Positions 44,621 through 49,643 of a stretch of DNA of 64,000 nucleotides are shown in pieces. This DNA comes from Blastomonas sp. GTDB taxonomy: Bacteria > Pseudomonadota > Alphaproteobacteria > Sphingomonadales > Sphingomonadaceae. The translations under genes were made by a program, and so were the position numbers. The notes under the pieces were generated by a model. The model was not told where the DNA came from, searched no databases, and saw only the letters and a list, made by a program, of their open reading frames with translations. Positions within the stretch are counted from its first letter, which is position 1; every line of letters starts with the position of its first letter. The stretch spans positions 62,001 to 126,000 of the forward strand of contig NZ_JAUCZC010000005.1 of NCBI RefSeq assembly GCF_030373265.1. The letters are read 5' to 3'.

Positions 44621-46327
44621 TCAACTGCCTTCTGTCGCCATCGCCGTTGCCAGCGGGACGTGCGCCCAGAGCTTACGGATTTCATCGTCATGCCCGGTCA
44701 GGTCATAGCGCAGCAGTGACACCGGCAGGCGTCCGGTGTTCATCAGATAATCGTGAAATTCCTTGATCGAGAATTTCTCGCCCAACTGCCTGCGGCGGTC
44801 GACCAGCATTTTCTGAAGCTGGATCGCGCCGATGGTATAGGTCATGCCATAGCCCGGGGGGCGGCGGATATAGATGCCCGCGTCGACCCGCGCGACATTG
44901 TCGTCGAGATACGGCGTCCATTCCTTCCAGAACTCCATCGCCCCGCCGACCGTCATCTCGTTGCGCTGCATCTTGACGTCGCCAATGGTGCGGGCGGCCC
45001 GGAACAGGCCGAAGATGTAGATCAGTTCGCGGGTGCGGGGTCGGTCATCGAACAGGCCGAGCTGGATCGCGCTTTCCTCAAGGTAGAACCCCCAGCCTTC
45101 GGTGCGGCCGCTGTCGTTGACATGCCGGCGGATCGGGTGGGTCACCCGCTTGCCGGTCATCCCGTCGAAGCGGTGGCCCGGGAAGGTGGCATGGAGATGG
45201 TCGGGAGAGACATCGCGGAACTGGACCTGCTCCCAGAACATCGGTCCATCGGGCCGCACCACCCAGGGTGCATTAAAGCCGACCTCGGTGTAGCTGTCGG
45301 GGATGTAGTCGGGGATCGTGATGATCTCCTCGTCTTTCAGCCATTTGCGGATCTTCGCGTCTGTTCCGGCCAGCTGCTTTTCATACTCCTCGGCCGACGT
45401 TGCGAGCTGGAGTTCGGGCAGGTTGCGGTTGCGGTGCCGTTCGGTCGCGTAATTCGCCCAGTGGCGTTCGAGCTCGCGCTCGGCCAGCGTCACGATTTCG
45501 TCCGAGTTATAAGGCATCAGCCGCACGTGGTGCAGGAACCAGTCATAGGCCGGTTTGCCCACGCCAGCGGCGGTGGTCATGCCGGGGCGGGCAGTGACCA
45601 GCCAGTCGCGGAAACCTGCGATTGCCTGCTGCGCTGCATCGATATCGGGCAGCAGATCGGGCTGCTGTGTCTCGGCGCGCGCACGCAGGTCCGCAAACCA
45701 CCCGATCAGCCCCGCAGGCTCGACTGCGCGATAGGGCATCCCATGGCCCACGCCGTCGCCGTTCGACAGGCTGTGGATGGCCAGATCGGCATAATCGGCC
45801 GCCACCGAATCCAGGTTGATCCGCGCCTGCGCCAGATAAGCAGGGATCGTGCGCAGCCGGTCCTGGTACCGCGCGCGCTGATCAGCAGCGAGCGGCAAGT
45901 CGACATAGGCCAGCCGCTGCAGTTCATCGACATACATCCCCGGATCGCGCGCCCAGGGCTTGGTGACGGTGAGCGTAAAATCCTGCAGGTCCATCTGCGC
46001 GCGAACGGCCAGGTAATCGACCTGCTGATGCCGGTCCCAGCCTGCCACGCCAAAGTCCGGGAGCCGAGCCTGGAGCGCAGCCAGTTCCGCGCGACGGGCG
46101 GCCATGGTCTGCGGGCTGTAATCGACGATTCCGTTCACCGGTTCGGGAGTTTTCCAGGCATTGAACTGATCGAACAGCTGGACAAGCTCCTGGTAGCTTC
46201 CCTGCCCGGTGGGGGGGCCTGCCGGCTGGGAAGTGCCCACTGTTGGGGAGGGGGCTTGCGCAGCCTGGGCAAGGCTGGCGGGGGCGGCAAGCAGCATCGC
46301 GATCGCTGCGAGAGATACCAGACGCAT
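44621..46327 (-). CDS. DUF885 family exported protein lacking the catalytic Glu
   Basis: A 568-residue protein with a signal peptide (MRLVSLAAIAMLLAAPASLAQ). DUF885 proteins are predicted gluzincin-like metallopeptidases with HExxPGH and a downstream Glu. Here the motif is HATFPGH (His379 to His385) so Ala380 replaces the Glu, while Glu410 in GRTEGWGFYLEE and the rest of the fold remain. It may be a non-catalytic binding protein or use another base. It is divergent from the TonB receptor gene with a shared 17-bp promoter element. Two intact paralogues lie 5.6 and 10.7 kb away. Confidence 0.82.
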   Translation of the reverse strand: MRLVSLAAIAMLLAAPASLAQAAQAPSPTVGTSQPAGPPTGQGSYQELVQLFDQFNAWKTPEPVNGIVDYSPQTMAARRAELAALQARLPDFGVAGWDRHQQVDYLAVRAQMDLQDFTLTVTKPWARDPGMYVDELQRLAYVDLPLAADQRARYQDRLRTIPAYLAQARINLDSVAADYADLAIHSLSNGDGVGHGMPYRAVEPAGLIGWFADLRARAETQQPDLLPDIDAAQQAIAGFRDWLVTARPGMTTAAGVGKPAYDWFLHHVRLMPYNSDEIVTLAERELERHWANYATERHRNRNLPELQLATSAEEYEKQLAGTDAKIRKWLKDEEIITIPDYIPDSYTEVGFNAPWVVRPDGPMFWEQVQFRDVSPDHLHATFPGHRFDGMTGKRVTHPIRRHVNDSGRTEGWGFYLEESAIQLGLFDDRPRTRELIYIFGLFRAARTIGDVKMQRNEMTVGGAMEFWKEWTPYLDDNVARVDAGIYIRRPPGYGMTYTIGAIQLQKMLVDRRRQLGEKFSIKEFHDYLMNTGRLPVSLLRYDLTGHDDEIRKLWAHVPLATAMATEGS

Positions 46328-46414
46328 TGAGCTGTTCTCCTCGTAATGGACTGAATGGGCGGGTTTGGAAACTACCGACTCAGTGTTCGGAACGTATCAT
46401 TTGAAACGAAAAAA

Positions 46415-46431
46415 GCGTGATTTTGAGCATA
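46415..46431 (-). promoter_or_regulatory. 17-bp promoter/operator element of the DUF885 gene
   Basis: Read toward the gene the sequence is TATGCTCAAAATCACGC, identical to the site before the TonB receptor gene (46707-46723) on the opposite strand. It ends 87 bases before the start codon. TATGCT may serve as a -10 element with the conserved rest acting as operator or initial transcribed region. A TTGACC lies 20 bp upstream of TATGCT. Confidence 0.6.
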
Positions 46432-46706
46432 GTGTTGCGCCGGGGGCGTGCGGTCAAGTGTCAAACGGGGCGATGCAGGCGGTGCCGCAGGTCGCAGGCA
46501 GGGCCCGCTTGTCCAGGACGAGAAGACCCCAAGGCGATAACGGTGGCCAGTGAAGGAAAGAACTAAAACAGATAAAAAACAAATGCTTAAAGCGGCGTAT
46601 TTGACCGTCGAGCGCGCTGTCGGATGCCGATGCAGTCTGTTTGGCGAGGCGCGATATGACGGAGATCATATTTTTTTATGACACGGAATTGACGCCATCC
46701 CCACAA

Positions 46707-46723
46707 TATGCTCAAAATCACGC
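46707..46723 (+). promoter_or_regulatory. 17-bp promoter/operator element of the TonB receptor gene
   Basis: TATGCTCAAAATCACGC ends 82 bases before the receptor ATG and is the exact inverse copy of the site at 46415-46431. The 275 bp between the two sites (46432-46706) hold no supported gene; the part at 46550-46610 is A-rich. Confidence 0.6.
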
Positions 46724-46805
46724 AACTGTTCACGGGAATGATCAACAGGAAAATGTTGGCTCCCGTGGCCTTCGCAGGTGAGCGTTTAACTCAGGGAGTA
46801 GAAAA

Positions 46806-49643
46806 ATGGTTTTGAGGCGGGTTGGGTTTAATCGTGCAGCATTGAAGTGCGGATCGGCGCTTCTGCTTTCCATGGCCGTGACTGGAACTGCGTTCGCGCA
46901 GGACCAGGCAGATAGCGAAGAAGGCGGTTCGATCGTGGTGACCGGTTCGCGCATTCCGCGTCCGGACGTTGAATCCAACAGCCCGGTGAACGTCATCGGC
47001 GAAGAGGAAATCAAGCTTTCGGTGACTGTCGAAAGCGAGCAGCTGCTCAATGCGCTGCCGCAAGCGGTCGCAGGCGCCGGTGCACAGTCCAACTCGGGCA
47101 ACCTCTCGGCAACCGTCAACCTGCGTGGCCTTGGACCGGTGCGCACCCTGGTGCTGCAGAACGGCCGCCGCGTTGTCGGCGCGTCGCAGGACGGCGTGGT
47201 CGATCTCAACATGATCCCGCCCTCGCTGGTGTCTCGCATTGAAGTCGTGACGGGTGGCGCTTCGGCGGTGTACGGTTCGGACGCGATGGCCGGTGTCGTC
47301 AACTTCGTGATGAAGGATGACTTCGAGGGCTTTGAGATCGGCGGCTTTTACGGCATCAGCGACGAAGGCGATGCCGCGCGCTACAATGTGGAATTCACCG
47401 CTGGTGGCAACTTCGCCGATGGACGCGGCAACATCGTGTTCCATGGCAGCTATTTTGATCGCGCTCAGGTGCGGGGCGCGCAGCGCGACCACGCGACCGT
47501 GTTCCTCGCCGATGCCATCGTCAACGGCCAGCCGACGCTGGTTCCGGCCGGCAATGGCGTAACGCCGCAGGGCACCATCTTCAGCCCTCAGCTCGTCGGA
47601 TTGCGCGACCGTGCCGGGACCGCGATCGGCACCGCAGGCATCTTCTTCGCACCCGAAGGCTGGCGCGCCTATCGTGGGTCCGATGGGTTCAACGACCGTC
47701 CGTTCACCAACCTGCAGATGCCGATGCAGCGCTGGCAGGCGTCGGTGCTGGGTCATTATGAAATGACCGATGCGATCACCGCGTTCTGGGAAGGCTCCTA
47801 CGTCCGCAGCAAGATCAATTCGACCCTGGGCGCGGTGCCGATGAGCAGCTCGGGCTTCATCCCCGGTTTCCAGCTCGATCTGCGCAATCCCTATCTCGAT
47901 CCCTCGTTGCGCGAGTTCCTGCGCGTCAACCTCGATGCTGACGGCAACAACCTGGTCCCGGTCAACATCAACCGGCGCCTGCTCGATGCCGGCGATCGCA
48001 CCAGCGACCAGACCCGCGATTTCTATCGCTTCGTGCTGGGCCTGAAGGGCGACCTGACCAGCCAGCTGAAGTGGGAAGTGTTCTACAATCAGGGCGAAAA
48101 CACGATCACCGACGTCCAGGGCGGCGGCGTGCTGATCGACAACTTCGCCAACAGCTTCCTGACCAACCCGGCCAACCCTTTCGATTGCGCTGTTGCCGAT
48201 CCGCGGTGCGTCACGATCAATCCCTTTGGCTTCGGTTCGCTGACCCCTCAAATGATCGACTATATCTCGACCGAGCTGACCAACATCACCAACGTCAAGC
48301 AGAGGCAGATCGGCGGCAGCATCACCGGTTCGCTGTTCTCGCTGCCTGCCGGCGATGTCGGCATTTCGGTGGGTGCGGAATATCGCAAGGAAAGTTCGCA
48401 GTTCGATCCTGACCAGCTCTACGTGCAGGGCAAGGCGCTGTCGCGTTCGGCGGGTCTCAGCCCCACGGGCGGTTCGTTCGACGTCGCCGAAGTCTATGGC
48501 GAAGTCTATGTGCCGATCCTCGCCGACACCCCCGGCTTCGAGTTGGTGGCCTTTGAAGGCGGCGCACGCTATTCGGATTACTCGACCGCGGGCAAGGTCT
48601 TCTCGTACAAACTGGGCGGCGAATATTCGCCTTTCGAAGGCCTGAAGTTCCGCGGCCTTTACCAGCGTGCGGTGCGCGCGCCGAACGTGGTCGAATTGTT
48701 CTCGGGAGCCACCAACACTGCGCCGCAGGCGGTCGATTTCTGCAACGCCGATGCCGGTCGTACCGCTGCAGAACGAGACTTCTGCATCACCGCGCTGCGT
48801 GTTCCGGCCAGCGTTATCGATGTGTTCCAGCAGGAGAACCAGCAGATCCGCGCGGTGACGGGCGGAAACCCCAATCTGCAGGAAGAAACGTCGGATACCT
48901 GGTCGGTCGGTGCAGTGATCCGCCCGGCCTTCATCCCCAATCTGCAGCTCACGGTCGATTACTACAACATCAAGATCGACCAGGCGATCGGATCGTTCGG
49001 CGGTGGTCTCCAGGCGGTGATCACGGCGTGCAACGCCAATCTGTCGCTCACCAACATCTTCTGTCAGCCGCTGGCCAATCGCACGCCAGACGGTCAGCTG
49101 ATCGATGTGCCGCTGCTCAACGCCAATATCGCCAAGCTGGAAACCTCGGGCGTCGATTTCCGTCTCGATTACCGGCACCAGATCGGGGAAGCGGGCAGCA
49201 TCAATTACTTCATCGCGGGGAGCTATCTCATCGATGCGATCACGCAGGGAAGCCCGGCAGTCAACCCGGTCAACTGCGCGGGCTATATCGGCGGCGGCAG
49301 CTGCACCACGGCGAACCCGACCTGGCGCTTCACCCAGCGCCTAACTTGGGCCACGGATTCGTTGCAGGTCTCGCTCCGGCATCGTTACCTGGGGTCGACC
49401 ACGGATGGCCGCATTGCCGGTGCGATCGCGTCAGGCATCACGCCTCCGCGGCTGGCTCGTCCAGAAACCGGTGATGTGCATTACTTCGACCTCAGCGCCA
49501 ATCTGGACGTGACCGAAACGTTCAGCTTCTTCGGGTCGATCGACAACCTGCTGGATCGTGATCCGCCGTTCTATCTCTTCGAGCGGGAAACCTTCGATGC
49601 GATCGGTCGTCGCTTCACGGTTGGTTTCAGGGCCAACTTCTGA
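46806..49643 (+). CDS. TonB-dependent outer-membrane receptor
   Basis: A 945-residue receptor. After a signal peptide (ending near GTAFAQ) comes the TonB-box/plug region (GGSIVVTGSRIPRPDVESNS, then SATVNLRGLG, VLQNGRRVVG and RIEVVTGGASAVYGSDAMAG) and a 22-strand barrel ending in the aromatic GRRFTVGFRANF. It resembles oligopeptide/saccharide receptors of sphingomonads and Caulobacter rather than siderophore receptors, but the ligand is inferred only from the downstream peptidases. GGGAG precedes the ATG. Confidence 0.95.
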   Translation: MVLRRVGFNRAALKCGSALLLSMAVTGTAFAQDQADSEEGGSIVVTGSRIPRPDVESNSPVNVIGEEEIKLSVTVESEQLLNALPQAVAGAGAQSNSGNLSATVNLRGLGPVRTLVLQNGRRVVGASQDGVVDLNMIPPSLVSRIEVVTGGASAVYGSDAMAGVVNFVMKDDFEGFEIGGFYGISDEGDAARYNVEFTAGGNFADGRGNIVFHGSYFDRAQVRGAQRDHATVFLADAIVNGQPTLVPAGNGVTPQGTIFSPQLVGLRDRAGTAIGTAGIFFAPEGWRAYRGSDGFNDRPFTNLQMPMQRWQASVLGHYEMTDAITAFWEGSYVRSKINSTLGAVPMSSSGFIPGFQLDLRNPYLDPSLREFLRVNLDADGNNLVPVNINRRLLDAGDRTSDQTRDFYRFVLGLKGDLTSQLKWEVFYNQGENTITDVQGGGVLIDNFANSFLTNPANPFDCAVADPRCVTINPFGFGSLTPQMIDYISTELTNITNVKQRQIGGSITGSLFSLPAGDVGISVGAEYRKESSQFDPDQLYVQGKALSRSAGLSPTGGSFDVAEVYGEVYVPILADTPGFELVAFEGGARYSDYSTAGKVFSYKLGGEYSPFEGLKFRGLYQRAVRAPNVVELFSGATNTAPQAVDFCNADAGRTAAERDFCITALRVPASVIDVFQQENQQIRAVTGGNPNLQEETSDTWSVGAVIRPAFIPNLQLTVDYYNIKIDQAIGSFGGGLQAVITACNANLSLTNIFCQPLANRTPDGQLIDVPLLNANIAKLETSGVDFRLDYRHQIGEAGSINYFIAGSYLIDAITQGSPAVNPVNCAGYIGGGSCTTANPTWRFTQRLTWATDSLQVSLRHRYLGSTTDGRIAGAIASGITPPRLARPETGDVHYFDLSANLDVTETFSFFGSIDNLLDRDPPFYLFERETFDAIGRRFTVGFRANF

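Follow-up and report, generated by a model that had tools for sequence, protein, structure and literature searches.

The window, a 64,000-nucleotide stretch of a Blastomonas sp. contig, holds a gene for a DUF885 protein (PF05960; 44621-46327, minus strand) that diverges from a gene for a TonB-dependent receptor (PF00593, PF07715; 46806-49643, plus strand). The receptor gene is followed on the plus strand by genes for a DPP IV-like S9 peptidase (PF00326, PF00930; 49720-51963), a second DUF885 protein (PF05960; 51965-53638) and a DUF3830 protein (PF12903; 53648-54127). The last two are assigned by synteny, the DUF3830 gene being the next gene of the conserved cluster, and receptor, S9 peptidase and second DUF885 gene would form an operon. 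We compared 20 regions, namely our own region and 40 stretches around the cluster from 19 other genomes. The cluster comprises genes for DUF885, TonB receptor, S9 peptidase, second DUF885, DUF3830, an SBF symporter, a DAO oxidase and a third DUF885 protein, and often also an aminotransferase with a fourth DUF885 protein, an oxidoreductase of the indolepyruvate type (PF01558, PF02775, PF20169), a putative cyclase (PF04199) and an M24 peptidase; small clusters contain only part of these genes. The DUF885 protein on the minus strand reads HATFPGH and that of the operon HEGVPGH; the HATFPGH copy lacks the acidic residue of what is likely a metal motif.

Two perfect copies of the 17-bp element TATGCTCAAAATCACGC stand between the divergent genes, at 46415-46431 on the minus strand and at 46707-46723 on the plus strand, with a gap of 275 bp between them. 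From the first copy there are 87 bases to the DUF885 start codon (46327) and from the second 82 bases to the receptor start codon (46806). An earlier note on this DNA had described this mirrored pair, and its positions, strands and distances all agree with the window sequence. No further match with up to three mismatches occurs elsewhere in the window, and the rest of the own genome (3.66 Mb) has three such matches, each with exactly three mismatches. When the 478-bp intergenic region was simulated 400 times with a first-order Markov model, inverted shared words reached at most 12 bases against the 17 observed, bearing out the early view that a perfect 17-mer was very unlikely to arise by chance. 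Conservation across genera is stronger evidence than these simulations that the element is real.

Across genera, the receptor-side copy hardly varies. With duplicate loci counted once (L013=L006, L014=L010, L015=L008, L028=L016, L011=L029), it has no or one mismatch in 18 of 18 distinct loci, our own included. Conservation upstream of orthologues, a check proposed from the sequence alone, proved positive. At a fixed spacer of 12 bp before the element stands TTG in all 18 loci and TTGAC in 16, and the conserved block continues downstream of the element (AACTGTTCAC in the own genus). Receptor orthologues are present in 12 of 397 family genomes. Among named records, which gave eight receptor loci, one of them (L020, receptor 29% identical) left out of the comparison, the closest orthologue is that of Blastomonas aquatica (92%). 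A pattern scan matched 7 of 396 genomes, and every match had a receptor orthologue next to it. With a 53-bp receptor-side model, the genomes that reached E<1e-9 were precisely those 12 of 397 in which a receptor orthologue is present; the model was trained on the loci of those 12, and the informative part is the other 385 genomes, none of which scores below E 0.001. Of these 385, 24 had weak matches only (E 0.001-0.05) and the rest no match; 18 of the 24 were viewed (L053-L070) and the other six left out, and only those in G294 and G357 were related to the cluster. A one-mismatch match in G031 (L012) was set aside as lying within an apparent ABC-transporter coding sequence, the gene being recognised by eye. 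Three members of the genus (G002, G003, G004) have neither the receptor orthologue nor the element, nor the aminotransferase at E<=1e-120, and given these absences the cluster seems to be accessory within the genus.

The DUF885-side copy behaves differently: only our own genome has it perfect, the 14 other loci compared differ from it by 2 to 10 mismatches, and in three of these the element has moved or disappeared. What is kept on this side is TTGACN-N17-CAnnnT, in 15 of 15 loci. In the window it reads TTGACC (46452-46457, minus strand), the predicted -35 of the DUF885 promoter, and CACTAT (46429-46434, minus strand), its predicted -10 at a spacer of 17. For the receptor promoter, the predicted -35 is TTGACG (46689-46694, plus strand), and position and conservation point to CAAAAT (46713-46718, plus strand), inside the element at a spacer of 18, as the -10; GAAAAT takes its place in 3 of 15 loci. 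The earlier note had read TATGCT within the element as the -10 of both genes. Between TTGAC(N) and this hexamer there are 12 bp before the receptor gene and 20 bp before the DUF885 gene, both outside the roughly 16-19 bp of a sigma-70 promoter. It cannot be the -10 of both promoters in one register, and it is probably not the -10; CAAAAT and CACTAT/CAnnnT, whose spacers are of ordinary length, would be better candidates. There is also no need for the alternative sigma factor that had been considered. In one locus with a changed DUF885 side (L019), that promoter has a long palindrome, GGGACATTAT...ATAATGTCCC, where the degenerate element would stand.

Further sites lie elsewhere in the cluster. 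A weight matrix was built from 15 receptor-side and 12 DUF885-side sites, without the DUF885-side sites of L019, L031 and L032, where the element is shifted or lost, and was run over both strands of the 20 regions (1.67 Mb). It gave 29 matches of at least 12 bits outside the training promoters, against 4 matches in all for the reversed matrix. Nine of the 29 fall within 450 bp upstream of the gene for MarR B, a MarR-family regulator encoded about 1.3 kb past the window end (PF01047; G000:C5:127300-127818), in 8 genomes, where about 0.3 would be expected; two of these nine are one site read on both strands. Two more precede the S9 peptidase, in G294 and G357, two genomes of another genus; these sites are directly upstream of the gene and again have TTGACC 12 bp before the element. 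An aminotransferase adjoins this S9 peptidase. The remaining 18 stand before neither gene. Two of them belong to G039 and G160, where an M24-like peptidase gene stands upstream of a TonB receptor gene and the site lies about 25 bp in front of the peptidase's open frame; some others lie before a DUF3830 or a TPR gene, and the remainder fall in coding sequence or in unrelated stretches. The best score upstream of MarR B was at least 12 bits in 8 of 19 genomes, 10-11 bits in 2 and lower in 9, with two of the 19 offering less than 300 bp of upstream sequence. The aminotransferase orthologue of our own genome (C5:137189) has ATCACGCAATTATTCACG upstream, a site that all six genus members with the aminotransferase, our own included, retain in altered form. 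The idea of a shared regulatory site for both transcripts holds in that the element behaves as one and is conserved, but the site is not confined to the DUF885 and receptor genes.

To examine symmetry, 34 sites were collected. In the 16 that belong to neither receptor nor DUF885 promoters, the best dyad axis falls after element position 15 (TCAC|GC), with a pairing of 0.55 (next 0.37, median 0.26). The seven DUF885-side sites have the same best centre (0.54), and in the 11 receptor-side sites alone it is second best (0.40 vs 0.48). When only pairs with the right arm outside the site-picking matrix are counted, the values are 0.55 (next 0.36) for the 16 sites, 0.55 (next 0.40) for the DUF885 side, and 0.40 against 0.41 for the best other centre on the receptor side. 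Because the site sets have this axis in common, the 17-mer appears to make up the left half plus centre of a bigger, imperfect palindrome, with ATAACCAAWATCAC|G as its approximate half-site. The axis would lie between 46721 and 46722 in the receptor-side operator (plus strand) and between 46416 and 46417 in the DUF885-side operator (minus strand), and the proposed full operators would extend, with approximate limits, over 46705-46738 and 46400-46433. Operators of the MarR family are likewise dyads of about 20 bp that overlap the target promoters, a likeness that is weak for the receptor-side sites taken alone.

In our own genome, the sites were scored with a 30-bp model trained on 26 sites of other genera and applied to the 54-kb own region and the window. 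The receptor site (from 46705) reached 40.0 bits, the DUF885 site 30.4, a putative site between MarR B and the M24 peptidase (C5:128083-128112) 27.1 and a putative site before the aminotransferase (C5:137132-137161) 22.1; nothing else exceeded 11.4 bits in the 54 kb or 10.1 bits in the window. Orthologues of the first three sites were part of the training set of 26; the aminotransferase site had no counterpart there. The whole genome was scanned with shorter patterns and models, and with these no wide regulon was found. The third, weak match of the model scan (E 0.585) is the aminotransferase site, and two other weak matches (E 0.7 and 2.9) were read as chance after viewing. One pattern was written with the own sites already in view, so its exact matches to the receptor and MarR B/M24 sites carry no independent weight; a third match of this pattern (C27, 2 mismatches) was read as chance. 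As far as searched, strong sites in our own genome are restricted to the cluster.

MarR B has a MarR winged-helix domain (PF01047, 48.5 bits against a cut-off of 24.6). Of 249 family genomes, apparently the same draw for both genes, 12 have MarR B (E<=1e-40) and 13 have the S9 orthologue (E<=1e-200), and all 12 are among the 13 (Fisher p 1.4e-19, uncorrected for kinship). MarR B is present in 19 of the 20 regions, a favourable sampling since a MarR gene was already known in G260, G039 and G160 when their regions were chosen, and G129 was left out. These four hold the S9 orthologues found outside receptor clusters, three of them with a MarR-family gene beside the S9 gene and the fourth, G129, without. 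In G028, the MarR B gene is on another contig, where its 3.5-kb locus has a single 12.3-bit match, away from its promoter. In small clusters of other genera (G294, G357, G260, G039, G160), MarR B stands directly beside the operon. The compared genomes are related, and counts over them are not independent events. The S9 orthologue of G129 (L083; 54%) has no core-motif match in the 1.5 kb upstream.

Taken as a whole, we put the probability of the following reading at about 0.7. The two 17-mers would be the conserved left halves and centres of two imperfect palindromic operators, which would lie across the core promoters predicted for the receptor-S9-DUF885 operon and for the DUF885 gene that diverges from it. 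MarR B would be the most likely binder of both, blocking RNA polymerase and repressing both promoters until a small ligand linked to the pathway substrate binds MarR B and releases it. Through the MarR B/M24 site and the aminotransferase site, the M24 peptidase and the aminotransferase would join the same regulon. The element appears to span the -10 or start region of both predicted promoters, which is a usual place for a repressor site. It was first taken to switch the genes on; since the site appears as a dyad and both predicted promoters are overlapped, repression is suggested and fits better. A single MarR-type repressor probably governs the outer-membrane receptor jointly with several peptidases and related genes. 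A search of an open-licence collection of papers found no description of such a MarR-type regulon, which is apparently undescribed, with an operator that is itself ordinary in kind.

The same operators could be bound by another protein, such as MarR A (PF01047; 56491-56970, minus strand) or an unlinked one, which we consider unlikely. MarR A is also a MarR protein of the same cluster, linked in 8 of the 20 regions including our own, and related MarR proteins can have similar sites. It is, however, absent from the 35-60 kb compared in G205, G308, G338, G505, G584, G006 and G007, though it may lie elsewhere in those genomes, and all seven have the receptor-side site and MarR B; it is also MarR B, not MarR A, that adjoins the small clusters of other genera. 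More improbable still is that two strong core promoters, or one alternative sigma factor serving both, account for the likeness by themselves and that no specific operator exists. Both sites do overlap conserved TTGAC and -10-like sequences, but their distance to TTGAC differs (12 vs 20 bp), the strong own-genome matches found with the patterns used are at the cluster only rather than at many promoters, and the sites as a set have a common dyad axis.

We give very little credence to the idea that a short leader peptide begins with the receptor-side block, ATG CTC AAA ATC ACG CAA CTG TTC ACG, which over the loci translates as M-L/I-K-I-T-x-L/I/M-F-T. The ATG is kept in 18 of 18 loci, and codons 5 and 9 vary at third bases only. 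Against this, third positions make up 6 of 10 variable columns (counted by eye), a bias that is not significant (p ~0.08), conservation ends with the ninth codon, neither the stop nor the frame with respect to the receptor gene is constant, the ATG has no clear ribosome-binding site in front of it, and it occurs in only 5 of 23 non-receptor sites; the reading was dropped. Chance or local duplication without function, to which the perfect DUF885-side identity in our own genome only could point, is hardly credible as it is contradicted by cross-genus conservation and the simulations. An RNA element in the intergenic region was also dropped, since Rfam gave just one match over 46200-46900, weak and irrelevant. 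Within it, GACGAGAAGACCC (46517-46529) looked to us like a ribosomal RNA motif; Rfam has no rRNA at this place and the likeness is probably chance.

Several known systems resemble the MarR B regulon proposed here. CRP/FNR-type sites have the consensus TGTGA-N6-TCACA, which the S9 site of G357, reading TGTGACCAAAATCACA, resembles, but the left half is not conserved in the other sites. Such a site would have its centre after element position 8, which ranks outside the top five even centres of each of the three site sets, and a CRP/FNR site was rejected on this ground. The best NCBIfam matches of MarR B are HpaR (TIGR02337, 42.8 bits) and BilQ (NF045593, 41.8 bits), far below their curated cut-offs of 121.2 and 125, and MarR B does not qualify as an HpaR equivalog. 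Its best solved match, and closest solved structure, is PDB 7KUA (E 1.1e-26 over residues 18-168), which PMC9613470 gives as MarR_iacR of P. putida. IacR-type regulators of indole-3-acetate catabolism are local regulators of a catabolic cluster, as MarR B would be here, and differ in their targets, since the genes proposed for MarR B encode a TonB receptor, DUF885 proteins, S9 and M24 peptidases and an aminotransferase. According to PMC5343134, the regulons of HutC and HypR include TonB-dependent transporters; there too a regulator joins an outer-membrane transporter with amino-acid utilisation genes, but these regulators are of the GntR family, with histidine or hydroxyproline/proline genes, and the candidate here is of the MarR type.

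Because the best solved match of MarR B is IacR, an aromatic or indolic ligand was considered, which is speculation by analogy. The fuller scheme, in which an IacR-like MarR would sense an aromatic or indolic product and tie uptake across the outer membrane and hydrolysis of peptides or amides by the TonB, DUF885, S9 and M24 proteins to aromatic amino-acid breakdown, is a tentative one that we hold to be doubtful. Also in the neighbourhood are the indolepyruvate-type oxidoreductase, the putative PF04199 cyclase and an enzyme of the salicylyl-CoA 5-hydroxylase family. If the scheme were true, the cluster would serve to scavenge aromatic peptides or conjugates, a system so far undescribed, and the DUF885 proteins, a family listed by Pfam as of unknown function, would act as its hydrolases. 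The comparison has turned a bare sequence repeat into a testable regulon and provides a candidate regulator, an operator and a gene list for sphingomonad clusters rich in DUF885 proteins; knowing which genes respond to the loss of one MarR gene would help to find the substrate of these receptors and peptidases. Divergent from the aminotransferase gene that bears the fourth proposed operator site is a gene of the bifunctional salicylyl-CoA 5-hydroxylase/oxidoreductase family (G000:C5:134747-137152; L099:1747-4152, minus strand), which matches NF006101 with 1268 bits, above the cut-off.
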